Positions 11,582-60,613 of a stretch of 64,000 nucleotides of DNA are shown piece by piece; position 1 is the first letter of the stretch, and every line of letters begins with the position of its first letter. The DNA is taken from the NCBI GenBank assembly GCA_017624915.1, contig JAGAMC010000025.1:101672-165671 (forward strand). The letters run 5' to 3'. Below the pieces are notes generated by a model. It worked only from the letters and a program-made list of their open reading frames with translations. It was not told where the DNA came from and ran no database searches. The stretch is from Oscillospiraceae bacterium (lineage in GTDB: Bacteria; Bacillota; Clostridia; Oscillospirales; Oscillospiraceae). The translations under genes were made by a program, and so were the position numbers.

Positions 11582-11619
11582 AGATGTCGCGTTGCCCGGT
11601 CAACGAAGCAACGTATTGT

Positions 11620-43908: not shown

Positions 43909-44418
43909 TTAGCCTTTCGAGGTTGCCCGTTTGTCAAAAGCGGGGTTGTAGAGATAGACGTTCTTCTGATCCATCTTTTCCTGCGCAAGGCGCAGGCACT
44001 CGCCGAAACGCTGGTAGTGAACGATCTCCCGCTGACGCAGGAAGCGGATGACGTTGTTCACATCCGGGTCGTCAGAAAGGCGCAGGATGTTGTCATAAGT
44101 CTTGCGGGCTTTCTGTTCGGCAGCGAGATCTTCGGTCAGATCGGCGATCACATCGCCGGTAGACTGAATGGAGGCGGCGCTCCAGGGGAAGCCGGAGGCG
44201 GCGGTGGGGTACACACCTGCGGTGTGGTCCACGAAATACTGGGCGAAGGTGGGGTTAGCCTGTACCTGTTCGTCGGTGAGATTGCGGGTCAGCTGGTGGA
44301 CGATGGCGGCGACCATTTCCAGATGGCTGAGTTCCTCGGTACCTGCCGTGGAGGGGCAATGGAGGAGCACGTCCAAAACCCTTGCGGCCCAAGGCTTTGC
44401 TGCGTCGAACAACGTCAA
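43909..44418 (-). CDS. cotJC: cotJC, 3' part: C-terminal 142 codons of spore-coat Mn-catalase, cut off by the inserted element
   Basis: Only 44343 down to 43909 is cotJC. The frame continues to an ATG at 44418, but those first 25 codons (MTLFDAAKPWAARVL...) come from the element and match nothing in the family. From the GT at the junction it reads EELSHLEM (metal Glu/His), DLAAEQKARKTYDN (metal Glu) and RQREIVHYQRFGE (metal Glu/His), ending NPAFDKRATSKG. The first metal ligand, in GPDGELGAS, lies 16 kb away in the 5' part at 60425-60613. Neither part alone has a full dimanganese site. CotJC is a sigma-E class inner-coat protein in Bacillus. Confidence 0.92.
   Translation of the reverse strand: MTLFDAAKPWAARVLDVLLHCPSTAGTEELSHLEMVAAIVHQLTRNLTDEQVQANPTFAQYFVDHTAGVYPTAASGFPWSAASIQSTGDVIADLTEDLAAEQKARKTYDNILRLSDDPDVNNVIRFLRQREIVHYQRFGECLRLAQEKMDQKNVYLYNPAFDKRATSKG
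44337..44343. repeat. Left attachment-site core (attL) of the cotJC element
   Basis: CGGTACC, shared with 60424-60430. The match extends to TTCC-N-CGGTACC. The left flank is cotJC coding DNA; the right flank is element DNA. Confidence 0.88.
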
Positions 44419-44541
44419 AATGGCGAATGTGCGAAAACCGGGGTGGCTGTGTGAGCTGGAACTGGACTACCGCCACCGGGGATGGGACAGGCACTACCAT
44501 GTAGACGTGCTGGCGGCACTTCCGGAAGGGGGTGCACGGCT

Positions 44542-45378
44542 GTGAAGGAGTTTCTACAGATGCTTTCCCCGGACAAGCTGCTGCCCTTTGAAAAGCATCC
44601 CTTTCAGGTACGGGAGGATGAGTCGCTTGAGGAACTGATGGAGAGCATCCGCTGCTACGGCGTGTTATCGCCCCTGCTGGCCCGTCCGAAAGGGGAGGGG
44701 TACGAGCTGGTCAGCGGCCACCGGCGGCGACTGGCGGCTCAGAAACTGGGTTTGGAGGCTGTTCCGGTGCTGGTGCGGGAGATGTCCGATGATGAAGCGG
44801 TGATCCTGATGGTGGACAGTAATCTGCAGCGGGAGCATCTGCTGCCCAGTGAGAAAGCCTTTGCCTATAAGATGAAGCTGGAGGCGTTGAAGCACCAGGG
44901 AAAAGGTACTTCGTGCCGACTTGGCACGAAGTCAAGAAGTGATGAGACTATCGCGCTTAATTCAGAAGAAAGTGCTCGAAACATCCAACGCTACATCCGC
45001 CTTACCAATCTTGTCCCGCCGCTGCTGAAACTGGTGGATGAAGGCCGTATTGCCTTTTCTCCCGCCGTAGAGCTGTCCTATCTGACAAAAGAGGAACAGG
45101 CAGAACTGTGGGACCTGATTGAACAGGAGGACGCCACACCGTCCTTATCTCAGGCGATCCGTATGAAACAGCTCTCCCGCATGGCTAAGCTGACACCGGA
45201 AGCCATTTATGCCATCATTTCCGAGGAAAAGCCCAACCAAAAGGAGCAGATTCGCCTCAAAACGGAGTCGCTGAAAAAGTATTTCCCCAGTCATTACAGC
45301 ACGCAGCAGATGGAAAAGGCCATTATGAAACTTCTGGAGGACCGCTACCGCAGCAAACACCGTGAGCAGGAGCGATGA
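44542..45378 (+). CDS. ParB/Spo0J-family partition-like protein
   Basis: A 278-residue protein from GTG 44542 (GGGGGTG upstream; an ATG at 44560 with AAGGAG is an alternative). The ParB N domain shows LLPFEKHPFQVRED, RCYGVLSPLLARP and the signature VSGHRRRLAAQKLG, followed by the HTH region (LLPSEKAFAYKMK, SARNIQRYIRL). This type is common in integrative conjugative elements, usually with a ParA partner, which is absent here. The GTGA start overlaps a stop that ends the frame running in from the left edge. Confidence 0.88.
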   Translation: MKEFLQMLSPDKLLPFEKHPFQVREDESLEELMESIRCYGVLSPLLARPKGEGYELVSGHRRRLAAQKLGLEAVPVLVREMSDDEAVILMVDSNLQREHLLPSEKAFAYKMKLEALKHQGKGTSCRLGTKSRSDETIALNSEESARNIQRYIRLTNLVPPLLKLVDEGRIAFSPAVELSYLTKEEQAELWDLIEQEDATPSLSQAIRMKQLSRMAKLTPEAIYAIISEEKPNQKEQIRLKTESLKKYFPSHYSTQQMEKAIMKLLEDRYRSKHREQER

Positions 45379-45397
45379 TTTCGTACACTGGCGCTAG

Positions 45398-45592
45398 ATG
45401 GCCAAGGCACAGGGTATCGACGAGGATTTGAAAGAGCGCGATCCTCTGGCGTGGGTGGGGGCAATGAACAACCTGAACCAGCTTGCCCAGCGTGCTCACT
45501 ATAGCGGGCAAATGGACACCGAGAAAATTGATAAAGCATTGGAAGAGGTCGGAGAGATCTTTGATCACGTCAAGCAGTGGTGGAAATATTGA
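45398..45592 (+). pseudogene. TnpV remnant (C-terminal part)
   Basis: The 64-codon frame begins MAKAQGIDEDLKERDPLAWVGAMNNL, closely like the end of transposon-encoded TnpV proteins (KQAQGITEQLKA...MEWVGRMNNI). The N-terminal two thirds are missing, a TAG stop lies just before the ATG, and no ribosome site is visible. It marks decay of an older transposon or conjugative element. The following 45593-45675 stretch has no clear gene. Confidence 0.6.
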
Positions 45593-45675
45593 CATTATTC
45601 GCTCCTCGGACTATGATGATTCTATCAATTAAAGTGGGAACGAGGGCCAATTCAACTGGCTGAATCCGCATTTTG

Positions 45676-45704
45676 AAAGCCCTACGTAAACGTAGGGCTT
45701 TTTT
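45676..45704 (+). terminator. Terminator after the parB/tnpV block
   Basis: AAGCCCTACG / CGTAGGGCTT stem with a TAAA loop, then TTTT. Confidence 0.85.
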
Positions 45705-45727
45705 GCTTTCAAAAGGGGAGGAACCAT

Positions 45728-45925
45728 ATGGAATATATGTCTATCTCACAGGCGGCAGAGAAGTGGGGGATCTCATCCCGCCGCATTCAGGTGCTCTGTA
45801 AGCAGGAGCGCATCCCCGGCGCATCCCGGATGGGCTATGTCTGGGCTATCCCGGCAGACGCGGAGAAGCCGAGAGATGCGAGAGTAAAAAGTGGAAAATA
45901 TGTCAGGCTAACAGGAAAGAACTGA
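45728..45925 (+). CDS. Small helix-turn-helix DNA-binding protein (excisionase-like)
   Basis: A 65-residue protein with a MerR/Xis-type winged HTH: ISQAAEKWGISSRRIQVLCKQERIPGA then a wing GYVWAIPADAEKP. GGGGAGGAACC precedes ATG 45728. Such small proteins are frequent in clostridial mobile elements. It could steer excision, acting as directionality factor, or regulate the cargo; this is a guess from size and place. Confidence 0.75.
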   Translation: MEYMSISQAAEKWGISSRRIQVLCKQERIPGASRMGYVWAIPADAEKPRDARVKSGKYVRLTGKN

Positions 45926-45942
45926 CTTGGGAGAGAAAATAT

Positions 45943-46977
45943 ATGCTCGCTTATACCTACGTAGAACACGGAAATTTTGAATTACAGGACAAGCCCAAGC
46001 CTGTCCTGCTCCATGACCGGGACGCAATCGTGCGGGTCACGCTGTCCAGCATCTGTACCAGTGACCTCCATATCAAACACGGCAGCGTGCCTCGTGCCGT
46101 GCCCGGTATCACCGTGGGTCATGAGATGGTTGGCGTTGTGGAAGAAGTCGGAGCGGCGGTCGCCAACGTCAAACCCGGCGACCGAGTGACGGTGAATGTG
46201 GAAACCTTCTGTGGAGAGTGCTTTTTCTGCCAGAATGGTTGGGTAAACAACTGCACCGATCCAAACGGCGGCTGGGCGTTGGGCTGCCGCATCGACGGGG
46301 GACAGGCGGAGTATGTCCGCGTGCCCTATGCCGATCAAGTACTGAATAAGATTCCTGACAGCGTTACCGACGAGCAGGCCCTGCTGGTAGGTGATGTGCT
46401 GGCTACCGGCTATTGGGCAGCGCAGATCTCTGAGATCAAGACCCGTGATACGGTGCTGATCATCGGTGCAGGACCGACAGGTATCTGCACTTTACAATGC
46501 GTGCGGTTAATGAATCCAAGACGTATTATTGTGTGTGATCGGGATGCGGAGCGCTTGAAGTTCGTCCGTGACAACTATCCCGAAGTTCTGACAGTTGGCC
46601 CCGAGCAGGTGGCCGATCTGGTACAGGCATATAGTGACCACGGCGGTGCAGATGTGGTATTGGAAGTAGCCGGCAGCGAGGAGACCTTCCGCATGGCCTG
46701 GGAGTGTGCCAGACCCAATGCCATTGTGACGGTGGTGGCCTTGTATGATGGCCCACAGTCGTTGCCACTTCCGGAGATGTACGGTAAAAATCTTACCTTC
46801 AAAACCGGCGGTGTAGACGGTTGCAACTGCGCCGAGACGCTGGAGCTGATTGCGGCAGGGAAGATCGACACCACGCCGCTCATTACCCATACCTATGCAC
46901 TCAAGGACATCGACGAAGCCTATGCCCTCTTTGAGAACCGCTGGGACGGTGTGATTAAAGTTGCCATCAAACCCTAA
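45943..46977 (+). CDS. Zinc-dependent alcohol dehydrogenase family protein
   Basis: A 344-residue MDR dehydrogenase. Catalytic zinc ligands are Cys in SSICTSDLH near 38 and GHE near 60. Four structural-zinc cysteines lie in CGECFFCQNGWVNNC near 88-102. The Rossmann loop is IIGAGPTGICTLQ near 172. It reduces or oxidises a short alcohol or aldehyde with NAD(P); the substrate is unknown. It is followed 18 bp later by a reductase gene. Confidence 0.9.
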   Translation: MLAYTYVEHGNFELQDKPKPVLLHDRDAIVRVTLSSICTSDLHIKHGSVPRAVPGITVGHEMVGVVEEVGAAVANVKPGDRVTVNVETFCGECFFCQNGWVNNCTDPNGGWALGCRIDGGQAEYVRVPYADQVLNKIPDSVTDEQALLVGDVLATGYWAAQISEIKTRDTVLIIGAGPTGICTLQCVRLMNPRRIIVCDRDAERLKFVRDNYPEVLTVGPEQVADLVQAYSDHGGADVVLEVAGSEETFRMAWECARPNAIVTVVALYDGPQSLPLPEMYGKNLTFKTGGVDGCNCAETLELIAAGKIDTTPLITHTYALKDIDEAYALFENRWDGVIKVAIKP

Positions 46978-46995
46978 CAAAATGGAGGGAATACC

Positions 46996-47688
46996 ATGAA
47001 CCGCCCTTATGTTATCTGCCACATGACTGTCTCTCTGGACGGAAAGGTCACCGGTGAGCATCTGGTTCGTTCCAACCATAGTCCTGTCAGCGAGGTCTAC
47101 TATGAGATCAACCGCAATTACAAAGCGGATGCTTACGCCTGCGGGCGCGTCACTATGGAAGACAGCTTTACCGGAGGCTGGTATCCCGATTTGAGCGAAT
47201 TTGAGCCCGCATACATCCCGATGGACTATCTGGTGGACGAGGTTACCGGCTTTTATGCGGTGGCCTTTGACCCCCATGGCCGCCTGGGCTGGAAGTCCAA
47301 TCGAATCATCGACGTAGATGAGGATCCCGGCTACGATAAAGCCCAGATCATCGAGGTTTTGACCCACGACGTCGACCTGCGCTACCTGACCTATCTGCAG
47401 TCCATGGGCATCCCCTATATTTTCGCCGGGGATACCGAAATCGACATGGAAGAGGCGCTCTTTAAGCTGAGATCCTACTTCGGCATCAACACCCTTCTTT
47501 TGGAGGGCGGCAGCATCCTCAACGGTGCTTTTCAGCGTGCTGGGGTCATCGATGAGCTGAGTCTGGTCGTCGATCCTGTCATCGGTGGAGAAGGGAAGTC
47601 CCTGTGTATGGACAGCAAAGTTGAGGAATACCGCTTGGTCGATGTGAAAAACCATGACGGGATCCTCTGGCTGAACTACAAGAAGTAA
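46996..47688 (+). CDS. RibD C-terminal/dihydrofolate-reductase-fold protein
   Basis: A 230-residue reductase of the RibD-C/DHFR fold: PYVICHMTVSLDGKVTG at the N-terminus, YACGRVTMEDSF, and LLLEGGSILNGAFQRAGVIDELSLVVDPVIGG near 165-195, where NADPH and substrate bind in RibD. It is a free-standing homologue, not the bifunctional riboflavin enzyme, so its substrate is open. GGAGGG precedes ATG. Confidence 0.87.
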   Translation: MNRPYVICHMTVSLDGKVTGEHLVRSNHSPVSEVYYEINRNYKADAYACGRVTMEDSFTGGWYPDLSEFEPAYIPMDYLVDEVTGFYAVAFDPHGRLGWKSNRIIDVDEDPGYDKAQIIEVLTHDVDLRYLTYLQSMGIPYIFAGDTEIDMEEALFKLRSYFGINTLLLEGGSILNGAFQRAGVIDELSLVVDPVIGGEGKSLCMDSKVEEYRLVDVKNHDGILWLNYKK

Positions 47689-47726
47689 GAAGCTTGATCA
47701 ATATCGTTATATTGGAGGAACGCAAC

Positions 47727-48191
47727 ATGTTGGAAGTTGGCATGAAAGCCCCTGATTTTACTCTGCCGGACAAGCGCGGCAACAGCGTCAGCCTGTCTGA
47801 TTTTCTGGGAAAGAAAGTGGTGCTGTATTTCTACCCCAAGGACAGCACCCCCGGCTGCACCCGTCAGGCCTGCGCCTTTGCCCAAAACCACAGCAATTTT
47901 GAGGACAAAAACGTGGTGGTCATCGGTATCAGTAAAGACTCTGTGGCCTCCCATCTGAAGTTTGCCGAGAAATATGATCTGCCCTTCGTGTTGCTGTCCG
48001 ACCCGGAACTGCAGGCCATTCAGGCCTACGGCGTCTGGCAGGAGAAGAAGCTCTACGGCAAGGTGAGCATGGGCGTGGTGCGCTCCACCTATCTTATCGA
48101 CGAGCAGGGCGTGATTGAAAAGGTGATGCCCAAGGTCAAGCCCGACACCAACGCCGCCGAGATTCTGGCCTATCTGAAGGTTGAGGGCTAA
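47727..48191 (+). CDS. bcp: Thioredoxin-dependent thiol peroxidase (Bcp/PrxQ)
   Basis: A 154-residue peroxiredoxin from ATG 47727 (GGAGGAACGC upstream). APDFTLPDKRGN, then YFYPKDSTPGCTRQACAF with the peroxidatic cysteine in TPGC and resolving cysteine five residues on. It detoxifies peroxides using thioredoxin. The cargo block repeats this oxidative-stress theme with YaaA and MutT. Confidence 0.93.
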   Translation: MLEVGMKAPDFTLPDKRGNSVSLSDFLGKKVVLYFYPKDSTPGCTRQACAFAQNHSNFEDKNVVVIGISKDSVASHLKFAEKYDLPFVLLSDPELQAIQAYGVWQEKKLYGKVSMGVVRSTYLIDEQGVIEKVMPKVKPDTNAAEILAYLKVEG

Positions 48192-48194
48192 GCT

Positions 48195-48581
48195 ATGAAG
48201 CGGATACTACCGGCTGTTTTGATCATACTTCTGTTATTCACCGGATGCGGAGGGAACAGTATGAACGAAAGCAGCTATCAGCAAATCGCCCAGGAGGCGG
48301 CTAAAGAGATGATGGACACTCAGGAGGTCGTGATCCTGGATGTCCGGGAACAACATGAGTACGACAGCGGCCATATCCCCGGTGCTATCCTGCTGCCTGT
48401 GGGGACCATTACAGAAGACACAGCAGCTACTGTGATCGGCGAATTGGATACAGTAGCCTTGGTCTACTGCCGCAGTGGAAACCGCAGCAAAACGGCCTCA
48501 CAGGCCCTTGCAGACCTCGGGTATACCAATGTCTATGAGTTCGGCGGCATCAACGACTGGCCATATGAGATCAAGGAGTAA
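48195..48581 (+). CDS. Rhodanese-domain lipoprotein
   Basis: A 128-residue secreted protein. Residues 1-18 form a lipoprotein signal with LFTGC lipobox. The rhodanese domain runs from about 32, with ILDVREQHEYDSGHIPGAI and active-site loop VYCRSGNRSKTAS (catalytic Cys). Possible sulfur-transfer or redox role at the cell surface. It lies three bases after bcp, so the two may work together. Confidence 0.88.
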   Translation: MKRILPAVLIILLLFTGCGGNSMNESSYQQIAQEAAKEMMDTQEVVILDVREQHEYDSGHIPGAILLPVGTITEDTAATVIGELDTVALVYCRSGNRSKTASQALADLGYTNVYEFGGINDWPYEIKE

Positions 48582-48583
48582 TT

Positions 48584-49301
48584 ATGATCGTTTACTTTTC
48601 TGGAACCGGAAACAGCCGTTTTGCGGCGGAATTTCTGGCCAAACAACTGGGTGATGAGCTGCTGGACGCTGGCCAGCGGATGAAAGCAGGGGAGAGGGAC
48701 ATTATCCACTCCGACCGCCCCTGGGTCTTTGCCGCGCCCGTTTACGCCTGGCGCATGGCCAATGTCATGGCGGAGTACATCCGCCGCACAGAATTGACCG
48801 GAAGCCGGGATGCCTACTTTGTGCTCACCTGTGTGCGAGGAAAAGGGGCTGCATTACAAGGGCGTGCTGGAAGTTGTGATGCCTGAAAACTACATCGCCA
48901 TGTTCAATGCTCCGGGCGAGGAGGAGTCCCGCGCCATCGTGACCAAGGCAAAACCTGTGCTGGAACAGGCCGGAGAGCTGATCCGGAAGGGGAAAGACCT
49001 CCCGGCATCCAAAGTCGGCCTGCTGGACAAGCTGAAAAGCGGCCCCATCAACGAGGGATTTTATAAGTTCTATGTGAAAGCGGACGCTTTCTTTGCCACC
49101 GACGCCTGTACCGGCTGCGGTTTCTGCGTGGAGGCCTGCCCGCTGAACAACATTCGCTTAAATGACGGAAAGCCCGTCTGGGGCAAGGATTGTACCCACT
49201 GCATGGCCTGCATCTGTGGGTGTCCCACTGAGGCCATTGAATACGGAAAGAGAAGCAAGGGAAAGCCCCGCTACCAGTGCCCAAAGGATGAAACCCTATG
49301 A
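48584..49301 (+). pseudogene. EFR1-family flavodoxin-ferredoxin, disrupted by internal deletion/frameshift
   Basis: The first frame (48584-48886) encodes a flavodoxin-like start MIVYFSGTGNSRFAAEFLA to AYFVLTC. The rest lies in another frame ending at 49301: CEEKGLHYKGVLEVVMPENY and two 4Fe-4S motifs, CTGCGFCVEACP and CTHCMACICGCP. About a dozen residues that normally lie between LTC and CEEKG are missing at about 48835-48845, next to a TGTG repeat. This points to a small out-of-frame deletion. A sequencing error alone would not explain the missing residues. Confidence 0.8.
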
Positions 49302-50065
49302 GAATCATCATTTCACCCGCCAAAAAGATGAATGTAGACATAGACAGCCTGCCTGTCCGCGATTTGCCTACCTTTTTGGAGCAGACAGAAGAGCTTTGCC
49401 GTGAGTTGCAGAGCAAATCCCCGGAGGAACTGCAAAAGCTCTGGAAGTGCAACGACCAGATCGCCGCGCTGAACGTAGAGCGGCTGCGGCAGATGGATCT
49501 GCGCTGCAACCTGACCCCGGCGGTACTGGCCTACGAGGGCATTCAGTATCAGTACATGGCCCCCAATGTGTTCACCAACCGTGAGTACGACTACATACAG
49601 GAACATCTGCGTATTCTCTCCGGTTTTTACGGCGTGCTGCGTCCCTTTGACGGGGTGACACCCTATCGTCTGGAGATGCAGGCCAAGCTGAAAATCCGCG
49701 AGGCAAAAGACCTTTACAGTTATTGGGGCAAGAAACTTACAGAGCATATTTTTCGTGAGACAGATTGTATCCTCAATCTGGCATCCAAGGAGTACAGTAT
49801 CTGCGTATCCAAATATCTGCGTCCCGGTATCCGATTCATCACCTGCGTGTTTGGAGAGGAAAAGGACGGCAAAATCATTGAGAAAGGCACCATGTGCAAG
49901 ATGGCCCGGGGCGAAATGGTGCGCTATATAGCGGAGCATCAAATCACCAAACCGGAGGACATCCGCGCCTTTGACCGTCTGGACTACGTCTTTGACCCGG
50001 AGCGTTCCGACGAAAGCACATATGTGTTTGTAAAGCGAGGGAAAGCACCATGCAGCTTGGATTGA
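49298..50065 (+). CDS. yaaA: YaaA family peroxide-stress protein
   Basis: A 255-residue protein of the YaaA/DUF328 family, starting MRIIISPAKKMN. In E. coli YaaA lowers free iron and limits damage under peroxide. Other conserved parts: AYEGIQYQYM, ILSGFYGVLRPFDGVTPYRLEM, NLASKEYSICV. Its start overlaps the EFR1 remnant by 4 bp, and it opens a run of overlapping genes to the SpoU gene. Confidence 0.92.
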   Translation: MRIIISPAKKMNVDIDSLPVRDLPTFLEQTEELCRELQSKSPEELQKLWKCNDQIAALNVERLRQMDLRCNLTPAVLAYEGIQYQYMAPNVFTNREYDYIQEHLRILSGFYGVLRPFDGVTPYRLEMQAKLKIREAKDLYSYWGKKLTEHIFRETDCILNLASKEYSICVSKYLRPGIRFITCVFGEEKDGKIIEKGTMCKMARGEMVRYIAEHQITKPEDIRAFDRLDYVFDPERSDESTYVFVKRGKAPCSLD

Positions 50066-50565
50066 CGTGGCCCCTCCAGCGGTTGCTGAAGGTGTCTGTT
50101 CCCTATGGGGAACCCACCGACCGCGGCCTTTGCTGGGATGCCCACTGCATCACCCTCCATGGCCGCAGCAGCCTGCTGCTGGTCCACTGCGCGAGTCGCT
50201 ATACCTGCGTGCGCTATGACCTGTCTGCCATGGACTGGCGCCATCTGGAAGAACGGGTATGGGAGGAAATCGAGCAGGGCCTGCTGGACGCCGGAATACC
50301 GGAGGAACAGGTGGCGGCCTATCTACAGGAAGCAGGGGAGATCCAACTCACTCGCACCCACGGCAGGCGGGAGGTAGCCTTCCTCAACCGTGCTTGGGAG
50401 GATGTGCTGTCCGCCGACTTACTGGTAGACCAAAGCAGCCACCGTCAGCCGATGTTAAACCATGCCGTCAACGACCGCCTGTGCCGCTGCGCCGGTGAGG
50501 ACGGTATGGACACGGCACAGGCTCACTTGGAGCGATATTTTCAGGAAAGAGAGCAAACGAGATGA
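50050..50565 (+). CDS. Conserved hypothetical, DUF6933-like
   Basis: A 171-residue protein overlapping yaaA by 16 bp. CWDAHCITLHGRSSLLLVHCASRYTCVRYDLSAMDW near 28-63 resembles DUF6933 proteins, which keep a WHANLI-like motif and a strand of LLVN type. The rest is helical. Function unknown. The next gene overlaps its stop by ATGA. Confidence 0.65.
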   Translation: MQLGLTWPLQRLLKVSVPYGEPTDRGLCWDAHCITLHGRSSLLLVHCASRYTCVRYDLSAMDWRHLEERVWEEIEQGLLDAGIPEEQVAAYLQEAGEIQLTRTHGRREVAFLNRAWEDVLSADLLVDQSSHRQPMLNHAVNDRLCRCAGEDGMDTAQAHLERYFQEREQTR

Positions 50566-51355: not shown

Positions 51356-51378
51356 TGCCTGTCAAGGAGTTTTGCTTT

Positions 51379-52209: not shown

Positions 52210-52216
52210 TTGCACA

Positions 52217-52247: not shown

Positions 52248-52258
52248 CAAATCAGACT

Positions 52259-52981: not shown

Positions 52982-53011
52982 CTCATTCACTCCATAGGAA
53001 ACTTCACCCAG

Positions 53012-53040
53012 AGTATATCATATCGAAACAGTATTTTCAA
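53012..53040 (-). promoter_or_regulatory. sigma-A promoter for the CPBP gene
   Basis: On the minus strand TTGAAA (53035-53040), 17-bp spacer, TATACT (53012-53017). Confidence 0.7.
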
Positions 53041-53066
53041 ATTCAGGAAAGGCAGTGGAGGCGGCC

Positions 53067-53447: not shown

Positions 53448-53452
53448 TGGGT

Positions 53453-54319
53453 ATGCACTATGTCACTGCAAAAGGGATCCTCTCCGCCAAAAACGGCATG
53501 AACCTCTACCGTGGTTGTCAGCACGGCTGCATTTACTGCGATTCCCGCAGCGAGTGCTACCACATGGACCATGACTTTGAGGACATCGAAGTCAAGGAAA
53601 ATGCCCTTGTACTGCTGGAGGACGCCCTTCGCCGCAAGCGTAAGCCCTGCATGATCGGCACCGGCTCCATGAGCGACCCATATATGCCGCTGGAGGATGA
53701 ACTGCAATACACGCGGAAGGCACTGGAACTGATCCGCCGCTACGGCTTTGGGGTCACGCTGATCACGAAATCCGACCGTGTTCTGCGGGATTTGGACCTG
53801 CTGAAAGCCATCAATGATAAGACAAAATGCGTTGTTCAGATGACTCTGACTACCTATGATGAAGAACTGTGCCGTAAATTGGAACCGGGCGTCTGCACCA
53901 CAAAGGCCCGCTTTGAGGCGCTGAAAACACTGCGGGATGCCGGAATTCCCACTGTGGTCTGGCTGTGTCCCATTCTGCCTTTCCTCAACGACACGCCGGA
54001 AAACATCAACGGCATTCTTGACTATTGCGAAGAGGCTCAAGTGAAGGGTATCATCTGCTTTGGTATGGGTGTGACCTTGCGGGCGGGCAACCGGGAGTAT
54101 TTCTACCGGCAGTTGGACCGTCATTTCCCGGGGCTGAAAGCGGAATACATCCGCCGTTACGGCGATGCCTATATGCTGGACAGCCCCCACAGCCGAGAGC
54201 TGATGGGCCTGTTCCACCGCCGCTGTCAGTCGGCAGGCATCCTGCACGACAATGACCTAGTTTTCCAATATCTCTCCCAATTTGAAGAGAAAACTATGCC
54301 GCAAATGAGTTTGTTTTAA
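53453..54319 (+). CDS. SPL-family radical SAM protein
   Basis: A 288-residue radical SAM enzyme related to spore photoproduct lyase. The cluster motif is YRGCQHGCIYCDSRS (C-x3-C-x2-C) near 20-34, followed by GSMSDPYMPLEDE. The C-terminal cysteine typical of true SPL is not obvious, so another DNA or protein radical reaction is possible. AGAGGTG lies before ATG 53453. Confidence 0.85.
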   Translation: MHYVTAKGILSAKNGMNLYRGCQHGCIYCDSRSECYHMDHDFEDIEVKENALVLLEDALRRKRKPCMIGTGSMSDPYMPLEDELQYTRKALELIRRYGFGVTLITKSDRVLRDLDLLKAINDKTKCVVQMTLTTYDEELCRKLEPGVCTTKARFEALKTLRDAGIPTVVWLCPILPFLNDTPENINGILDYCEEAQVKGIICFGMGVTLRAGNREYFYRQLDRHFPGLKAEYIRRYGDAYMLDSPHSRELMGLFHRRCQSAGILHDNDLVFQYLSQFEEKTMPQMSLF

Positions 54320-54331
54320 GGGGGAATCCCT

Positions 54332-55033
54332 ATGAAGGACGAATGTTTGATCTGCAAAGCGCCGCTGGAATATCTCGTTCAGGACGAGATGATGGAGTGC
54401 GCCATTTGCCATAAGAAAGAGCTGAGCAAGACCCGCTGCGTGAAGGGCCACTATGTGTGCAGCGAGTGCCACACGCAGGGAATGGACAGCATTTTCGGCC
54501 TGTGTCTGGCCGAAACCTCCACCGATCCCATTGAGGTCATCCGCAAGATGATGGACCTGCCTTTCTGCCACATGCACGGCCCGGAGCACCATGTGATGGT
54601 GGGTGCGGCCCTGTTGACCGCCTTCAAAAATGCGGGCGGCGAACTGGATTTGGAAAGTGCTTTGCGAGAAATGTACAGCCGGGGCAAACAGGTGCCCGGA
54701 GGGGCCTGTGGCTTCTGGGGGGCCTGCGGGGCGGGTATCAGTGCCGGACAGTTTATGTCCATCGCCACCCAGTCCACGCCGTTGGCGAAAGAGCCGTGGG
54801 GATTGAGTAACCAGATGACTTCCAAGGCGCTGGGCAGTATCGGCGAAGTTGGAGGCCCCCGCTGCTGCAAGCGGGATTCTTATCTTGCAATCCTTGCCGC
54901 CATCGACTTCGCCAAAGAACATCTGGGCGTAGAAATGAAGCGCACCATTCCGGTTTGCAGCCACTCTGCACAGAATAACCAGTGCATCGGTAAGCGGTGC
55001 CCGTTCTCGGAGGTGAACCATGAGCAAGCCTAA
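54332..55033 (+). CDS. DUF5714 domain-containing protein
   Basis: A 233-residue Cys-rich protein. An N-terminal zinc ribbon (CLICKAPLEY...CAICHKKE, then CVKGHYVCSECH) leads into the DUF5714 body with HGPEHHVMVGAALLTAF, GGACGFWGACGAGISAGQF and GGPRCCKRDSYLAI, and a final CSHSAQNNQCIGKRCPF. In methanogens and clostridia these are tied to methyl or cofactor metabolism but not proved. GGGGGAA precedes ATG. Confidence 0.83.
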   Translation: MKDECLICKAPLEYLVQDEMMECAICHKKELSKTRCVKGHYVCSECHTQGMDSIFGLCLAETSTDPIEVIRKMMDLPFCHMHGPEHHVMVGAALLTAFKNAGGELDLESALREMYSRGKQVPGGACGFWGACGAGISAGQFMSIATQSTPLAKEPWGLSNQMTSKALGSIGEVGGPRCCKRDSYLAILAAIDFAKEHLGVEMKRTIPVCSHSAQNNQCIGKRCPFSEVNHEQA

Positions 55034-55421
55034 AGTCGCTTTTATCTGCGTCCATAATTCCTGCCGCAGTCAGATCGCCGAAGCTCTTGGCAAAAAGCTG
55101 GCTGCTGATATCTTTGAAAGCTATTCTGCCGGCACGGAAACCAAGCCCCAGATCAATCAGGATGCGGTGCGGCTGATGAAGGCCGTCCACGGCATCGACA
55201 TGGAGCAGGAGCAGTACAGCAAGCTGCTTTCGGAGTTGCCTGCCATCGATGTGGTAGTTACGATGGGCTGCAACGTCCAGTGTCCCATGCTGCCCTGCAG
55301 TCATCGCGAGGACTGGGGACTGGATGATCCTACCGGACAGCCGGATGAGGTATTTCTGGACGCTATCCGGCGGATTGAGGAGAAAGTTCTTGATTTAAAG
55401 GCGAGACTGGAGCAGAGGTGA
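55020..55421 (+). CDS. arsC: Arsenate reductase ArsC (thioredoxin-coupled, LMW-PTP type)
   Basis: A 133-residue reductase overlapping its neighbour by 14 bp. The P-loop is FICVHNSCRSQIAEA (nucleophile Cys9-like), with the second redox cysteine pair in MGCNVQCPMLP. It reduces arsenate to arsenite. No arsB/acr3 or arsR is next to it, so it may act on another oxyanion or rely on a distant exporter. Confidence 0.88.
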   Translation: MSKPKVAFICVHNSCRSQIAEALGKKLAADIFESYSAGTETKPQINQDAVRLMKAVHGIDMEQEQYSKLLSELPAIDVVVTMGCNVQCPMLPCSHREDWGLDDPTGQPDEVFLDAIRRIEEKVLDLKARLEQR

Positions 55422-55425
55422 GGGC

Positions 55426-55992
55426 ATGAAAATTCTTTGTTTCGGTGACTCCAACACCTACGGCTACGACCCGCGCTCCTATGTTGGCGGCCAATATCCC
55501 GCACAGCATCGCTGGGTAGATCTGTTGGCCGAAAAGATGGACTGCAAGGCAGTCAACGCAGGGGAGAACGGGCGGGAGATTCCCAGACGGGAAGGGGAAC
55601 TGCAGCGCTTCGATCTGATGCTCTCCAATCAGAAGCCGCTGGATCTGCTGCTTGTTATGCTGGGCGGAAATGATTTGCTGCAGGGCAACTCTGTGGAGGC
55701 AATCGCGCAGCGGATGGAGGCCTTTTTAACCAGAATTCCGCTGGAAAATTCGCAGATCGTTTTGATTGGACCGCCCCGGATGAAACCGGGCGCATGGATC
55801 ACAGACGATCGGCTACTGGAGGATTGCGTGCGGCTCAATGCCGCGTACCACGCGGTTGCAGAAAAACTAGGTGTCCGCTTTGTAGACGCCACCGATTGGG
55901 ACATAGACGTGACCTTTGACGGCGTCCACTACTCGGAGAAAGGTCACGAAACCTTTGCAGAAAACCTGTATCTGGCACTGAGCAAATCATGA
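55426..55992 (+). CDS. SGNH/GDSL hydrolase
   Basis: A 188-residue esterase or lipase fold. Block I CFGDSNTYGYDP (Ser), block III VMLGGNDLLQ (Asn), and block V FDGVHYSEKGH (Asp, His). It has no signal peptide and is thus cytoplasmic; it resembles arylesterase/acetylxylan-esterase types. It is 4 bp after arsC. Confidence 0.9.
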   Translation: MKILCFGDSNTYGYDPRSYVGGQYPAQHRWVDLLAEKMDCKAVNAGENGREIPRREGELQRFDLMLSNQKPLDLLLVMLGGNDLLQGNSVEAIAQRMEAFLTRIPLENSQIVLIGPPRMKPGAWITDDRLLEDCVRLNAAYHAVAEKLGVRFVDATDWDIDVTFDGVHYSEKGHETFAENLYLALSKS

Positions 55993-56156
55993 GTTCATTC
56001 GGCCTGTGAGCCTGATGATATATTTTTATTTTGAAGGAGACCGCTGTTTGAAAAAGAACAACACGTTGGAGAGTGTGGGCTGACCGGGAGGTTTGCCAAA
56101 ACATTTTCCGCAAGCCTCCCAGGATTGAAAGTCAACAATTTTAGGAGGTCACCCCC

Positions 56157-56780
56157 ATGAAAAATGACTGCATCATTCGTTTGGAAACAAGTAACGACCA
56201 TACCGAAGTGGAACATCTGGTACGGGAATCCTTTTGGAATGTGTACCGCCCCGGCTGTCTGGAGCACTATGTGCTGCACTGTCTGCGAGATGACCCGGAT
56301 TTCATTCCGGAACTAGATTTCGTGATGGAGCAGGACGGCGTAATCATCGGTCAAAACATCTTTATGCGCGCATCCATTGCAGCTGACGATGGCCGCAGCA
56401 TCCCGATCCTGACCATGGGTCCCATCTGCATCGCAAATGCGCTGAAGCGCCAGGGATATGGAAAGGTTCTGCTGGACTACTCTCTGGAGCAGGCCGCGAA
56501 GCTGGGCGCAGGGGCTGTGTGCTTTGAAGGCAATATCAACTTCTACGGCAAAAGCGGCTTTACCTACGCCTCGAACTACGGCATCCGCTATCACGGTTTG
56601 CCGGAAGGGGAGGATGCATCCTTCTTCCTGTGCAAGGAGCTTATTCCGGGGTATCTGGACGGCATCACCGGCGAGTACGCAACACCCTCTGGATATTTCG
56701 TGGATGAGGGAGACGCAGAGGAATTTGACAATCGATTTCCTCCCAAGGAAAAGCTGAAATTACCGGGACAGCTTTGGTAA
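56157..56780 (+). CDS. GNAT-family N-acetyltransferase
   Basis: A 207-residue acetyltransferase. The CoA-binding motif A region is ILTMGPICIANALKRQGYGKVLL near 83-105. FYGKSGFTYASNYGIRY follows, as in YhbS-like GNATs. The substrate is unknown. TTAGGAGGTCA precedes ATG. The gap 55993-56156 before it holds an 11-codon frame (TTG 56048, AAGGAG upstream) and a GGGAGGTTTGC / GCAAGCCTCCC hairpin. Confidence 0.87.
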   Translation: MKNDCIIRLETSNDHTEVEHLVRESFWNVYRPGCLEHYVLHCLRDDPDFIPELDFVMEQDGVIIGQNIFMRASIAADDGRSIPILTMGPICIANALKRQGYGKVLLDYSLEQAAKLGAGAVCFEGNINFYGKSGFTYASNYGIRYHGLPEGEDASFFLCKELIPGYLDGITGEYATPSGYFVDEGDAEEFDNRFPPKEKLKLPGQLW

Positions 56781-56882
56781 CAAATGAATGAGATGGCCCC
56801 GCCGTGTTTTCACGGCGGGGCCATTACCTTTGGCTTAATAAGATATTGTCTGATTGGGAAAGCTGTTTTTGAGGTGATTTTT

Positions 56883-57059
56883 ATGCATAAGCATGTACCC
56901 GACAGACCCATTGAAAAAGACGAACTCCCCGTTCCGGAAGAAATTTATCCCGTGATTGACAACGATTTGGCCCGCGACAACATCGAAAATGATATTCCGG
57001 CCGCTGATTTGGAAGATCTTCTGCCAAAGGTGAGAGGAGACGGTTGGAATGGAAAATAA
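56883..57059 (+). CDS. Small acidic hypothetical protein
   Basis: A 58-residue protein starting at ATG 56883 with GAGGTG nine bases upstream. Rich in Asp/Glu/Pro (EKDELPVPEEIYPVIDNDLARD); no domain recognised, probably disordered. Its end overlaps the next small gene by 11 bp, so both are likely made together. A GGCCCCGCCGTG / CACGGCGGGGCC hairpin precedes it (near 56793-56822). Confidence 0.55.
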   Translation: MHKHVPDRPIEKDELPVPEEIYPVIDNDLARDNIENDIPAADLEDLLPKVRGDGWNGK

Positions 57060-57228
57060 CTTGCCCTTGGGATTCAGTTTTGCGCTGGCCCAGAACCCTG
57101 AGGCCATGAAGGCTTTCTCCAGCTTCCCGGAGGAGAAGCAAACGGAGATTCTGAACCGAGCGAAGAGCGTCGTTTCCAAATCGGAAATGCAAGCGTTGGT
57201 AAATGGCCTGTCCGTACAGGAATCATGA
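57049..57228 (+). CDS. Small conserved helical protein
   Basis: A 59-codon gene (MENNLPLGFSFALAQNPEAM..., ending NGLSVQES) with GAGGAGA before ATG 57049. It matches a type of short protein I recall in many clostridia (LPLGFG-ALAQN...A...F...LP). Amphipathic helices, no known role. It is tucked between the acidic ORF and the tocopherol-cyclase-like gene. Confidence 0.6.
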   Translation: MENNLPLGFSFALAQNPEAMKAFSSFPEEKQTEILNRAKSVVSKSEMQALVNGLSVQES

Positions 57229-57231
57229 CGC

Positions 57232-58131
57232 ATGGCAGGGAAGAATAAAGCAGGCAGACCGTATTTTGAGGGTTGGTATTTTAAGTGTCAGACGAAAGAT
57301 GGAAAAACCGTTGCCCTGATCCCGGCGATTCATAAGGACGGCAATAGCCAAGGCAGCGCATCTCTTCAAGTTATCTCTGAGTCCGGTACTTGGTGGCTGG
57401 AGTATCCGGAAGCGGAATTTCATGTCACAAAACAACCGCTGCAAATTTTGCTCGGCTCCAACACCTTCAGCGAAGAAGGAATTTCTCTGCAGGTAGAGCG
57501 CAGCGGTCTGTCTCTGCACGGGGAACTTTGGAACGGCCCATTGACTCCACTTCAGTCTGATATTATGGGTCCGTTTCGATTCATTTCAGAGCTGGAATGC
57601 ACCCATGGTGTGGTCAGTATGGGGCATCGCCTGAATGGGACGCTCACCCTGAACGGCGAGACATTGAACTTCTCCGGCGGATTGGGATATATCGAAACCG
57701 ACCGGGGACGATCCTTTCCCGACAAATATCTGTGGACCCAGTGCAGTTGGGTAAATCCAGAAGTCACCGGCCTGATGCTTGCCGTTGCTACCATCCCCAT
57801 TCTGAAGTATGTCCGCTTTACGGGAACGATCTGTTCCATCCATTACAACAAGCGGGAGTACCGTTTGGCTGCCTACAAAGGCGCGCGGATCAAAGCATGG
57901 TCGGAGCATGGAGCAGAAGTCATTCAGGGAAAGTACCGTCTAGTGGTAGAGGTGCTGGAAAAGCAAGGACAACCTTTGCGTGCGCCGGTGGAGGGTGCAA
58001 TGGGGCGCATCATTCACGAAAGCCTTTGCTCCAAAGTGCGGTATCGCTTTTGGGAAAAAGGGCATCTGATCTTCGACCACACCGATGATGGAGCAAGTTT
58101 TGAATATGCTGAAAAAACAACTGCACGATGA
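57232..58131 (+). CDS. Tocopherol-cyclase family-like protein
   Basis: A 299-residue beta-rich protein with the family opening PYFEGWYFKCQ, then IPAIHKDG, SDIMGPFRF and GGLGYIETDRGRSFPDKYLWTQ. Bacterial members of the PF14249 type are lipocalin-like and rarely cyclise tocopherol; here the ligand is unknown. No signal peptide. It closes the cargo block. Confidence 0.8.
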   Translation: MAGKNKAGRPYFEGWYFKCQTKDGKTVALIPAIHKDGNSQGSASLQVISESGTWWLEYPEAEFHVTKQPLQILLGSNTFSEEGISLQVERSGLSLHGELWNGPLTPLQSDIMGPFRFISELECTHGVVSMGHRLNGTLTLNGETLNFSGGLGYIETDRGRSFPDKYLWTQCSWVNPEVTGLMLAVATIPILKYVRFTGTICSIHYNKREYRLAAYKGARIKAWSEHGAEVIQGKYRLVVEVLEKQGQPLRAPVEGAMGRIIHESLCSKVRYRFWEKGHLIFDHTDDGASFEYAEKTTAR

Positions 58132-58139
58132 AATACAAG

Positions 58140-58167
58140 ACGCTTCGGCCACGCCGGAGCGTTTTTT
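58140..58167 (+). terminator. Terminator after the cargo block
   Basis: ACGCTTCGGC / GCCGGAGCGT stem (one wobble) with CAC loop, followed by six T. Confidence 0.85.
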
Positions 58168-58244
58168 CTTGCATTAGGTACTTAAATTGTAAATATTCTG
58201 TAAACAAGCGCTATATTTCTCTAAAAGTTGTCCCAAAGGCACCT

Positions 58245-58351
58245 TTCGAAACGGGATAGTGAATGAAAGGGGAAGTTCTCTACCTTCGTTCTAAAACCAT
58301 TAAAAATATTTTTTGAAAAACGCACTTTTTAGACTGTTCAAAACGGGATAG
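58245..58351 (+). repeat. Two TTCRAAACGGGATAG repeats upstream of the recombinase
   Basis: Copies at 58245-58259 and 58337-58351 differ at one base and are 92 bp apart. Each is followed by AAAGGG and a short hairpin-like CTC/GAG segment. They may be binding sites for the recombinase, an accessory factor or a regulator. Confidence 0.5.
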
Positions 58352-58392
58352 GTAGTAAAGGGAGAAAATCTCCGCCCTAACTAAATGACCGT

Positions 58393-58503
58393 CCGGATGA
58401 GATACTGTTTCGGGGAAGTCTGCCGGGATCGGCTATAAGGCCGCAGCAGACCAAGGACAGAACTACGGCGTCCCAAGGTAGGGAGGCCAGGAACCGCATC
58501 CGG
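58393..58503 (+). ncRNA. Candidate structured leader RNA of the recombinase operon
   Basis: A closing stem CCGGATG (58393-58399) / CATCCGG (58497-58503) encloses a stem GTCTGC / GCAGAC (58418-58451) with an inner CGGC-TATAAG-GCCG, and a CCC/GGG arm further on. This three-way-junction shape without an open frame suggests a folded RNA. No known class is recognised. Non-coding 58168-58566 otherwise shows only the repeats. Confidence 0.45.
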
Positions 58504-58566
58504 GGAAAACGGCAATCAAATTCGTCCGGGCCACCGCATAAATCTGTTAAGAAGGGAGGGAGCAGG

Positions 58567-58734
58567 ATGCCAAAATACGCGGAATTTCTGAACTGTACCG
58601 GCACACCAAAGGTGGAAAAAGCCTTTTTACTGGAATATCAAAAGGCCGTCCTGCTTGCCTTGCAGAAGGAGGGGATCATCGACCAATTCCAGCTGGAGGA
58701 ATGCATCAGAAAACTGGAATACCAATATCGGTAA
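58567..58734 (+). CDS. Small protein upstream of the recombinase
   Basis: A 55-codon gene with GGGAGGG before ATG 58567. The protein (MPKYAEFLNCTGTPKVEK..., ending CIRKLEYQYR) is helical with no known domain. Its place right before the recombinase makes it a candidate directionality factor or expression partner. Similar short frames precede recombinases in other clostridial elements, as I recall. Confidence 0.6.
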   Translation: MPKYAEFLNCTGTPKVEKAFLLEYQKAVLLALQKEGIIDQFQLEECIRKLEYQYR

Positions 58735-58823
58735 AGTTAAATTACATAACAGAATAATCTGCATTCGCACATTAGACAAACGCCCCTGTTCGCGCTACTC
58801 TGACCACGAAAGGAGGGATTACC

Positions 58824-60464
58824 ATGATCCAGGTTGCGGCCTATTGCCGTGTTTCCACCGACAAGGAAGATCAGGCCAACTCGTTTGAAACCCAGCAGCG
58901 CTATTTCCGGGAATGGATCGACCGAAACCCGGAGTGGATGCTGCAGGAAATCTACGCCGACGAGGGGATCTCCGGCACTAACACCAAAAAGCGCACCCAG
59001 TTTAACCGTATGATCCGGGCGGCCCGTGAGGGAAAGATTGACCTGATCATCACCAAGGAGGTCAGCCGTTTTGCACGAAACACCGTGGACACGCTGGAGT
59101 ACACCCGGGAGCTGCGAAAGCGCGGGATCGGCGTACTGTTTCTCAATGACAACATCAACACCATGGACGCGGACGGTGAACTGCGGCTGACCATCATGTC
59201 CTCCATCGCCCAGAACGAGAGCCGCATGACCTCTGACCGGGTAAAGTGGGGGCAGAAGCGCTGCATGGAGCGCGGCGTAGTGTTCGGAGGCTCACTTCTG
59301 GGTTACGATGTGGTAGGAGGGAAGATGCGAATCAATCCGGAAGGGGCAAAAACAGTCCGTACCATCTTCCATAAGTACTTAAACGAGCGAAAAGGCTCCG
59401 GTGTGATTGCCAAAGAACTGCGGGAGGAGGGGATTCCGTCCAGCCGGGGCAATCTGAAATGGACAGCTCCCACGGTGCTGAAAATCCTGAAAAATGAGAA
59501 GTATTGCGGCGATCTCATCCAGCAAAAGACCTACACCCCGGATTACTTAAGCCACGAGAAGAAGTACAACAAGGGTCAGCTGGATTTTGTGGTGCTCCGC
59601 GACCACCACGAGCCCATCATCGACCGGGAGACCTGGGAGGCCGTCCAGCGGGAGATGGCCCGCCGCAACATCGGTGACAGCCAGAAAAGCGGCCACGGCA
59701 ACCGTTATCCGCTCTCCGGCAAGCTGAAATGCGCGGAATGCGGCAGCAGCTTTATGTCCCGTACGAAAAAGAACCGCAGCGGCGAAGCCTATAAGATTTG
59801 GCGCTGCGGCAAAGCCACCACCGAGGGAAAACTGCACACTGATGCACAGGGCAATCCCATGGGCTGTGACGTAGGGCGACAGATTCGTGAGGACGTGGCC
59901 ATGGACATTCTAAAGCGCTCTGTGGAGGCCGTAGAGCTGGACAGGGAAGAGGTCATCCGAAACCTCACCCGCATCGTGGAGGGCGTTCTGAAGGACAGCA
60001 GGGACGACGGCAGCGCCGATTTACGACGGCTGAACCGGGAGCTGGAAGGAGAGAGGGAGAAGAAACAGCGAGCACTGGAGGAATTCTTCGACCGCACCAT
60101 CTCCAAGGCAGACTTCCAGTTTATGAACGAGCGATGCGACCGGAAAATCACCCAGATTCAGGAGCAGATCGCCGTTATTGAAAAGCGGCGCAAGCTGGAT
60201 ACCCAGACCACCGGTGTGAAAAAGGACGTTCGGGACGCCATTAAAAGCATCGTAAAAGGGGAGAGGGACAGCGACGATTTCTATGGCCGCCTGCTGCATC
60301 ATATGATCCTTCACAGTGACGGAAAAGTGGAGGTTTCCCTGAATTTACTGCCCGCACGGTGGTATTTTGTGCTGGACGGTCTTGCGGAATATGAGGCGCA
60401 AAAGGTGGCTCAATCCGCTTCCACGGTACCGATATCGGTCAGAAGGCCTTTGGCCTCGGCGTAG
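58824..60464 (+). CDS. Large serine recombinase of the cotJC element
   Basis: A 546-residue site-specific recombinase. The catalytic resolvase domain has AAYCRVSTDKEDQ with nucleophile S11, YADEGISGTNTKKR, ITKEVSRFARN and SIAQNESRM. The recombinase domain follows (GYDVVGGKMRINPE..., NEKYCGDL). A zinc ribbon starts LKCAECGSSFMSR, and a coiled-coil lies near 400-450, important for synapsis control. AAAGGAGGG precedes ATG 58824. Codons 1-535 are element DNA; the last 11 are read from cotJC DNA in the other direction. In the circle the frame would run 67 codons into the left end instead (602 aa). A loose sigma-E-like pattern (AATATC-N15-CATAACAG, 58724-58752) precedes it. Confidence 0.93.
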   Translation: MIQVAAYCRVSTDKEDQANSFETQQRYFREWIDRNPEWMLQEIYADEGISGTNTKKRTQFNRMIRAAREGKIDLIITKEVSRFARNTVDTLEYTRELRKRGIGVLFLNDNINTMDADGELRLTIMSSIAQNESRMTSDRVKWGQKRCMERGVVFGGSLLGYDVVGGKMRINPEGAKTVRTIFHKYLNERKGSGVIAKELREEGIPSSRGNLKWTAPTVLKILKNEKYCGDLIQQKTYTPDYLSHEKKYNKGQLDFVVLRDHHEPIIDRETWEAVQREMARRNIGDSQKSGHGNRYPLSGKLKCAECGSSFMSRTKKNRSGEAYKIWRCGKATTEGKLHTDAQGNPMGCDVGRQIREDVAMDILKRSVEAVELDREEVIRNLTRIVEGVLKDSRDDGSADLRRLNRELEGEREKKQRALEEFFDRTISKADFQFMNERCDRKITQIQEQIAVIEKRRKLDTQTTGVKKDVRDAIKSIVKGERDSDDFYGRLLHHMILHSDGKVEVSLNLLPARWYFVLDGLAEYEAQKVAQSASTVPISVRRPLASA

Positions 60465-60613
60465 GGCATGGCATACCGCTGGGACAGATAGCGCATGGAG
60501 GCACCCAGTTCGCCGTCCGGGCCGCCGTACTGGCTGATGATAAATGCGGCCAGCTTGGGATTTGGGTTGGCGATCTTTACGGGAAATTGCAGCTTCTTTT
60601 CATAGACAAACAT
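60410..60613 (-). CDS. cotJC: cotJC, 5' part: first 63 codons of spore-coat Mn-catalase
   Basis: ATG 60613 follows GAGGTGAAG, four bases after the cotJAB stop. The cotJC sequence (MFVYEKKLQFPVKI..., GGPDGELGASMRYLSQRYAMP with the first metal Glu, LLTDIGT) runs to 60425. The last few codons (VEAD, stop at 60410) are element DNA. Joined to 44343-43909 it gives a 205-residue CotJC with all ligands. As it stands the product lacks most of the catalytic four-helix bundle. Confidence 0.92.
   Translation of the reverse strand: MFVYEKKLQFPVKIANPNPKLAAFIISQYGGPDGELGASMRYLSQRYAMPYAEAKGLLTDIGTVEAD
60424..60430. repeat. Right attachment-site core (attR) of the cotJC element
   Basis: CGGTACC, identical to 44337-44343; here the left flank is element (recombinase 3' end) and the right flank cotJC codons. 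Confidence 0.88.

Follow-up and report, generated by a model that had tools for sequence, protein, structure and literature searches.

The 64,000-nucleotide stretch of Oscillospiraceae DNA analysed here (the window; contig JAGAMC010000025.1 of assembly GCA_017624915.1) carries the spore-coat gene cotJC, whose product is a manganese (Mn) catalase-like protein, in two minus-strand pieces that meet an intervening element at identical copies of a short core sequence. The features which define this arrangement are as follows.

60431..60613, minus strand: cotJC 5' piece, codons 1-61, with codons 62-63 supplied by the core, PF05067 profile positions 1-66
43909..44343, minus strand: cotJC 3' piece, running from core codon 62 through the stop, PF05067 profile positions 62-199
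60424..60430: right copy of the 7-bp core CGGTACC (right attachment site), in register with the left copy
44337..44343: left copy of the 7-bp core CGGTACC (left attachment site), in register with the right copy
44344..60430: intervening element, not in the intact relatives compared
60617..61069, minus strand: cotJA-cotJB as a single fused open frame, the upstream part of the cotJ operon (PF11007 and PF12652)
58824..60464, plus strand: large serine recombinase of 546 aa, with Resolvase, Recombinase and Zn_ribbon_recom domains

The split gene and its predicted joined product

The original prediction held that the two pieces belong to one CotJC protein, and this is borne out by their matches to the Mn_catalase family PF05067, which exceed the Pfam cut-off for each piece (72.5 bits for the N-terminal and 106.7 bits for the C-terminal piece) and are the sole two matches to that family (E <= 0.001) in the 1.71-Mb host genome. 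The open frame of the 3' piece starts at a TTG inside the element, 75 bp ahead of the core. The core word has no significance when taken alone, since the window contains 7 copies against 3.8 expected and 13 of 100 shuffles reach 7; its weight comes from its placement in register at codon 62 of both halves. When the halves are joined at the core, the result is a frame of 205 codons which is open throughout and whose product aligns gap-free over 199 residues, at 95.5% identity, with the intact CotJC from a genome of the same genus (G024). The joined protein can also be aligned to solved Mn catalases across the junction. One conserved Glu (in GEL) comes from the N half, whereas TEELSHLE, AAEQ and REIVH come from the C half; we take these to be the positions that supply the Mn ligands of CotJC.

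The comparison with relatives in which cotJC is intact extends to the flanks. Once three paralogue-like rows are omitted, the genus supplied 19 intact cotJC stretches, 17 of which have an amidase like that of the window upstream of cotJA/JB, and the one stretch that reaches far enough (L026) continues into ligA and so matches both flanks of the window, which are therefore neighbours in that genome. The shared core, the restoration of the reading frame on joining and the element length of 16,087 bp, which is the distance between the cores, were thus all correctly anticipated, as was the presence of a large serine recombinase at the junction. The latter is confirmed by PF00239, PF07508 and PF13408 matches which all lie above cut-off, in a protein that fits the description of large serine recombinases (about 500 aa), and by the 3' end of its gene, which overruns the core by 34 bp into the N piece, so that its last residues are encoded antisense to cotJC. 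The recombinase matches the SPbeta YokA-YotN structures in the PDB, and XisF is among its two best NCBIfam matches, at a score well under the cut-off (129 against 375 bits). XisF belongs to the fdxN element, which is excised from a cyanobacterial nitrogen-fixation gene in the terminally differentiating heterocyst.

Recurrent break sites among relatives

The locus had been taken for a single case, and this part of the original prediction does not hold, because split cotJC genes prove to be widespread, to be broken at several sites and sometimes to be broken twice. With the recombinase alone as the query, the 80 best relatives among 168 encoding contigs of named genomes were retrieved, and a cotJC piece was present in 77 of these 80 loci, mostly broken near codon 62-66; the record titles name Oscillospiraceae, Ruminococcus, Lachnospiraceae and Anaerocolumna (complete genomes). 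Two of the remaining three loci (L146 and L172) are contigs of less than 7 kb. In the third (L161, Butyricicoccus sp. Marseille-Q5471, 8703-11590) the recombinase (43%) adjoins a 5'-truncated dpaA, the dipicolinate synthase A gene, followed by dpaB; this dpaA covers profile positions 128-286 of 287 only, and its 5' piece was not found. Even this exception is therefore at a sporulation gene, and the recombinase family may use a second such gene as a target. Within the genus, all 7 full-length relatives of the recombinase (that of the window included) adjoin a cotJC 5' piece, and no such piece was found at 13 weaker loci (L010-L022) within flanks of about 1.5 kb. At the level of the class, the recombinase is present at E <= 1e-100 in 27 of 291 genomes and 22 of 181 genera.

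Two surveys of cotJC itself give the frequency of the breaks, in the codon numbering of the window's CotJC, from which profile positions differ slightly. In the genus, a match was obtained in 53 of 61 genomes, of which 19 have a full cotJC-like copy and 34 a split one, one genome having both; this tally omits G026, in which adjacent pieces meet at profile positions 131/153, and sets aside the paralogue-like full matches of G003, G006 and G050. The breaks lie at codon ~137 in 21 genomes, codon 62 in 13, codon 31 in 4 and codon 52 in 1. In the family, sampled at about one genome per genus, 82 of 101 genomes have an Mn-catalase match, 51 with a full copy and 32 with a split gene (complementary pieces in 26 of the 32; split pieces only in 29), and the sites are 62 in 19, 31 in 10 and 137 in 6. 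The family tally leaves aside five short weak matches of another kind (profile ~12-83) and takes in six single-piece genomes, some of which are perhaps cut by contig ends (for example G061 and G083).

A tree of 84 recombinases largely follows these sites. The six site-31 rows and two rows from doubly cut genes form one group (support 100), a second group (also support 100) unites 10 of the 11 site-137 rows with two unassigned ones, and 30 of the 33 site-62 rows lie in a group of 43 (support 97) that also has 13 rows farther from a junction or beside other genes. The tree was built by a quick method, with several long branches flagged and 33 of 96 site-62 rows included; among its labels, L110_1973 and L133_11735 are assigned to site 62 yet group with site 31, L173, L191 and one L176 row were labelled by hand, and L181_6441 and L065_1985 are the second recombinases of their loci. 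Judged from the sequences, then, cotJC has three recurrent sites (~31, ~62 and ~137) with largely separate recombinase lineages. Culturable commensals that carry the site-62 element include Pseudoflavonifractor phocaeensis An901 and Oscillibacter valericigenes An907. Yet another recombinase accompanies a 5.2-kb insertion near codon 52 (L086, in G059).

Some genes are cut at two of these sites. In G084 and G089 cotJC is in three pieces adjoined by recombinases of the site-31 and site-62 types; the middle piece, which runs from YGGPDGEL as far as the core at codon 62 and is only ~35 codons long, stands alone, and a separate contig carries the N piece. G111 has two pieces, on two contigs, next to site-62- and site-137-type recombinases. 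A stand-alone middle piece occurs in 8 of the 80 recombinase-fetched loci (L107, L110, L116, L117, L120, L121, L122 and L133), five of which (L107, L110, L117, L122 and L133) have a second recombinase on the far side, and five genomes of the window's genus have pieces at two sites as judged by position only.

At site 62, all 78 N pieces are free of internal stops and 38 of 39 C pieces are open over at least 125 codons; since only pieces under one long match were counted, with a few genomes entering twice, this count favours open pieces. Joining the halves of 25 site-62 rows gave at least 188 codons in 22; two further rows (L126 and L160) reach the ends of their contigs, and the window supplies the last row. 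Two of the rows (L073 and L093) are one genome, and in two (L153 and L165) the bases used for the join were poorly chosen. The join scripts keep register by construction, so that what they test is whether the halves have bases in common at one codon (runs of 2-12) and whether stops are absent; an ungapped join search gave a total of 20 of 39, which says little on distant loci, where it fails because of an indel near codon 92.

The ratio of nonsynonymous to synonymous differences (pN/pS) has a median of 0.071 in the N halves of split genes (55 pairs) against 0.060 in intact genes (120 pairs), and of 0.203 in the C halves of split genes (28 pairs) against 0.147 (120 pairs), with the provisos that only stop-free pieces were compared, that the pairs are not independent and that some of the divergence may predate insertion. 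By this measure both halves of cotJC are under purifying selection. The C half sits away from the cotJ promoter, and possible starts for it are present, namely the TTG in the window and, in L154, L165 and L167, an ATG that precedes it by a few codons; its conservation is therefore strong, not absolute, evidence of rejoining.

Phage sequence collections contain similar pieces. The record MT839280.1 (4,417 bp, faecal phage collection, 63% recombinase) was considered as an excised circle and rejected, being a linear fragment on which the cotJC 5' piece is still accompanied by cotJA/JB, the amidase and a portion of RadA. MT837874.1 has a cotJC 3' piece, and no cotJC was seen in MT839448.1. In IMG/VR a cotJC piece was present in 2 of 26 loci (L193 and L194), which is uninformative on phage origin.

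Apparent breaks were also noticed in sigK. In the reduced 1.71-Mb genome of the host (G000) no match resembling SigK was found other than SigE, although many of its genus mates do have SigK, and in G037 the gene is apparently split into pieces ~15 kb apart (G037:C11:159099-159458 and 174084-174431) that cover profile positions ~2-121 and 109-224; there are likewise apparent splits in G011, G053 and G045. Among the matches listed, single pieces occur in G054, G001, G008, G021 and G025, and others begin from position ~60-65 on, so that sigK may have more than one break site in the genus.

Recombinase operon, predicted circle junction and cargo

The region ahead of the recombinase contains a small gene and a promoter-like motif, a similar motif precedes the cotJ operon, and the recombinase frame itself can be followed across the core when the element is closed into a circle.

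58567..58734, plus strand: small gene of 55 aa directly 5' of the recombinase, candidate recombination directionality factor (RDF)
58537..58544, plus strand: -10-like CATAAATC upstream of the small gene, its last position differing from CATANNNT
61112..61119, minus strand: -10-like CATAGAAT upstream of the cotJ operon
44338..44545, plus strand: open frame, continuous with that of the recombinase across the core, by which the enzyme would be lengthened to 602 aa once the element is a circle

The 55-aa protein matched no Pfam or NCBIfam family and is a candidate RDF by analogy of position and size. In a permissive profile search in which near-copies were counted, members of its family lie upstream of 72 of 96 site-62 recombinases and 10 of 33 unassigned ones, and of none of the 11 site-137, 6 site-31 and 1 site-52 recombinases.

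The motif CATANNNT, presumably the -10 element of SigE or SigK promoters, stands at this position in the other 6 of 7 aligned sequences. Of the 49 non-redundant site-62 regions ahead of the small gene, 28 contain it, compared with a mean of 7.1 in shuffled sequences, which preserved single-base composition only and of which 0 of 500 scored as high; the corresponding controls are 72 of 442 other genes of the same loci (Fisher p 1.8e-9) and 12 of 49 on the reverse strand. This enrichment comes from a second scan with a changed region, with start codons picked by script. Ahead of cotJA, a count by eye gave this -10 form in 9 of 11 rows (8 of 10 distinct). Two copies of TTC(G/A)AAACGGGATAG, at 58245 and 58337 (plus strand) and 92 bp apart, lie upstream of the recombinase operon and are possibly regulator sites.

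When circles were closed by script, the recombinase frame passed the core in eight genomes (the window, L094, L106, L115, L135, L153/L185, L167 and L189), and in all other testable ones it stopped before the core. A tail resembling that of the window was found only in L153/L185 (one genome), plus a weak resemblance in L189. Between the window and L153, 19 of 33 changes in the tail are at third positions and pN/pS is 0.28, a value that rests on a chosen 37-codon block for which one reverse frame gives 0.35. Because the frame continues past the core with a similar tail in L153/L185, the attachment site seems, on sequence grounds, to lie within the recombinase gene in the window's lineage.

Besides the recombinase and the small gene, the element carries some 22 genes, mainly with housekeeping or stress domains.

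44527..45378, plus strand: ParB-like protein (PF02195), present in the L153/L185 element too
45943..46977, plus strand: zinc-binding alcohol dehydrogenase, with the same gene in the L093, L154, L159, L167 and L097 elements
47727..48581, plus strand: AhpC/TSA-family peroxiredoxin and rhodanese-like protein, both in L093 too
49298..50065, plus strand: peroxide stress protein YaaA, also in L093, L154, L159, L167 and L105
50562..52209, plus strand: NUDIX protein, peptide deformylase, SpoU rRNA methylase
53061..58131, plus strand: DUF5655, radical SAM, DUF5714, low-molecular-weight phosphatase/arsenate-reductase-like, GDSL and GNAT proteins, a short open reading frame (ORF), tocopherol-cyclase-like protein

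A flavodoxin-like gene at 48584-49301 (plus strand) consists of two overlapping frames (48584-48886 and 48810-49301) and is possibly frameshifted. No phage structural gene and no relaxase appeared among the Pfam matches of the cargo ORFs searched, which include weak MobC/TnpV similarity only. Seven cargo genes are common to L093 and the window in the same order, and the alcohol dehydrogenase, YaaA and SpoU genes are common to the window's element and those of L154, L159 and L167. The smallest cotJC elements are ~3 kb. Those of L164 and L165 consist of the recombinase, a small gene and a single larger open frame; in L164 this frame encodes pyrimidine-nucleoside phosphorylase domains. A 61-kb prophage-like insertion near cotJC codon 65 in G050 (G050:C1:5601-66417) has an unrelated serine recombinase and carries terminase, portal, tape measure, endolysin and reverse transcriptase genes; insertions of this kind indicate one route by which such elements may arise.

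A probable developmental element and its alternatives

The element lies in a sporulation gene between copies of a short core at which joining restores the reading frame, and it has its own serine recombinase; in these respects it is a sporulation gene-intervening element, and the Pfam matches of the cargo ORFs searched include none of the structural genes that mark prophage-like ones. The host has SpoIVA, SigE (above cut-off) and Spo0A. As originally predicted, the best-supported reading is that this is a skin-like developmental element, which is probably excised in the sporulating mother cell so that cotJC is rebuilt; the evidence for this, all of it drawn from sequence, is the in-register core, the recombinases tied to particular sites, the selection on both halves, the -10 motif in relatives and the sporulation genes of the host. 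The element would use codon 62 of cotJC as a site-specific attachment site. During sporulation the recombinase operon would be switched on from a mother-cell promoter of the SigE/SigK type, and the large serine recombinase, probably assisted by the 55-aa protein, would recombine the two cores. This would free a circle and restore an intact cotJA-cotJB-cotJC operon, and the mother cell could thereby produce the Mn-catalase coat protein. The forespore would retain the integrated copy, through which the element and its metabolic cargo would be inherited. In this scheme we infer that the element is excised at all, in which cells and when this happens, and what the small protein does.

Several observations weigh against developmental excision. 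Apart from the SigE gene and weaker sigma matches, no SigK was found in the host genome, though its assembly is 96.6% complete and the cotJ operon is SigE-dependent in B. subtilis. The -10 sequence of the window itself (CATAAATC) is without the final T, which is one mismatch to CATANNNT, and its -35 region matches no consensus clearly. The first promoter scan, which covered 230 bp upstream of the recombinase itself, gave no enrichment (the count was 15 of 58, that of the reverse strand 22 of 58, and shuffled sequences averaged 12.9), so that the enrichment appears only upstream of the small gene. The C-half pN/pS is somewhat above the intact level in split genes. The recombinase of the nearest relative (L093/G037) stops at 518 codons, and those of L154, L159 and L167 are only ~290 aa long and have no small gene, with cotJC halves that are still open; therefore either a short recombinase suffices or open halves do not prove excision. 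The last three are Flavonifractor-labelled metagenome-assembled genomes.

The alternative which survives best, and which we nevertheless regard as unlikely, is that the element is a mobile element or prophage remnant for which cotJC is a harmless site, with excision that is random or stress-induced and under no developmental control, so that those cells in which it happens to be excised make the catalase. The prophage-like insertion of G050 shows that phages also use cotJC, and the recombinase frame that runs through the attachment site in the circles of some relatives is as would be found in a still-moving element. This account is opposed by the enrichment of a mother-cell-type -10 before the recombinase operon, by the housekeeping-like nature of the window's cargo, with neither phage structural gene nor relaxase among the Pfam matches of the ORFs searched, and by the common order of the cargo in relatives, which suggests long residence. 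It is very improbable that the insertion is simply dead, with cotJC lost and its halves left as remnants: the shortened recombinases of some relatives and the possible dispensability of a catalase for a strict anaerobe would fit such a loss, against which stand the open frames of the site-62 pieces, the purifying selection on both halves with shared bases in register, and the retention of the recombinase across many genera. Least probable of all is a split catalase assembled from the halves as two polypeptides, for while both halves are conserved and possible starts precede the C half in some genomes, the Glu of GEL is in the N half and the TEELSHLE, AAEQ and REIVH motifs are in the C half, and doubly cut genes have so short a middle piece.

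A broader and much more tentative proposal is that cotJC is a recurrent target of developmental editing in the Oscillospiraceae and their kin, kept in two or three pieces that are joined in the mother cell by recombinases dedicated to the sites at ~31, ~62 and ~137. In the window's lineage, integration would in addition swap the C-terminus of the recombinase (602 aa in the circle, 546 aa when integrated), which may help to set the direction of recombination. We consider this combined proposal possible, at less than even odds.

The comparison with known systems draws on the available passages of the cited papers. The skin element in sigK of B. subtilis and C. difficile likewise has a serine recombinase by the 5' piece (spoIVCA, PMC10747680) and an excision that rebuilds a sporulation gene; in C. 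difficile the pair is CD1231/CD1234, a small RDF being under SigE and SpoIIID (PMC5025042). The cotJC elements differ from skin in that their target is a coat catalase gene and not a sigma factor gene, in the several sites and double cuts within a family, and in the lack of any phage gene in the Pfam matches of the window's element. The SPbeta prophage in spsM of B. subtilis encodes SprA and a 58-aa RDF, SprB, under mother-cell control, and at the sprB promoter the -10 fits SigE or SigK perfectly whereas the -35 is poor (PMC4191935). The 55-aa gene recalls SprB (58 aa, PMC4191935) and CD1234 (53 aa, PMC10747680) in place and size; SPbeta, unlike the window's element with its small gene directly 5' of the recombinase and its metabolic cargo, is an active phage in a polysaccharide gene. 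The gin element in gerE of B. cereus ATCC10987 is likewise not a prophage and has a serine recombinase and a short core, CATCTCAAA, and differs in its 28.6 kb and three recombinases (PMC5595907), the cotJC elements looked at having mostly one per junction. The yin element in yabG of C. botulinum is also in a sporulation gene, with a recombinase and a putative RDF, and is prophage-like and, in the passages available, reported from no other genome (PMC10747680).

No description of an intervening element in cotJC was found in the titles, abstract starts and passages of the open-licence PubMed Central (PMC) literature, and the word cotJC is absent from PMC5595907, PMC10747680 and PMC4191935. The nearest case in these sources is the phi027 prophage of C. 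difficile R20291, a mobile element which adjoins a CotJC homologue; that 678-bp bacterial gene lies downstream of attR and, in the available text, is not described as interrupted or rebuilt (PMC11222575). What is new within the literature searched is therefore the cotJC target, its spread, the several sites and the double cuts, while the kind of element is known.

Developmental excision has been described, in the sources available, for few sporulation genes (sigK, spsM, spoVFB, gerE and yabG), against which stand the 32 of 101 genomes of a single family, sampled at about one per genus, that have cotJC in pieces. The occurrence of the same gene in pieces across so many relatives suggests an undescribed and common rebuilding of a gene in spore formation. 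Annotations of gut genomes may show cotJC, and perhaps sigK too, as fragmentary or absent, and predictions of spore formation can be misled as a result. Culturable commensals also make it possible to test what draws such elements to sporulation genes and how the elements are tamed, what is gained from the metabolic cargo, and whether genes needed in the mother cell alone are generally free to split.

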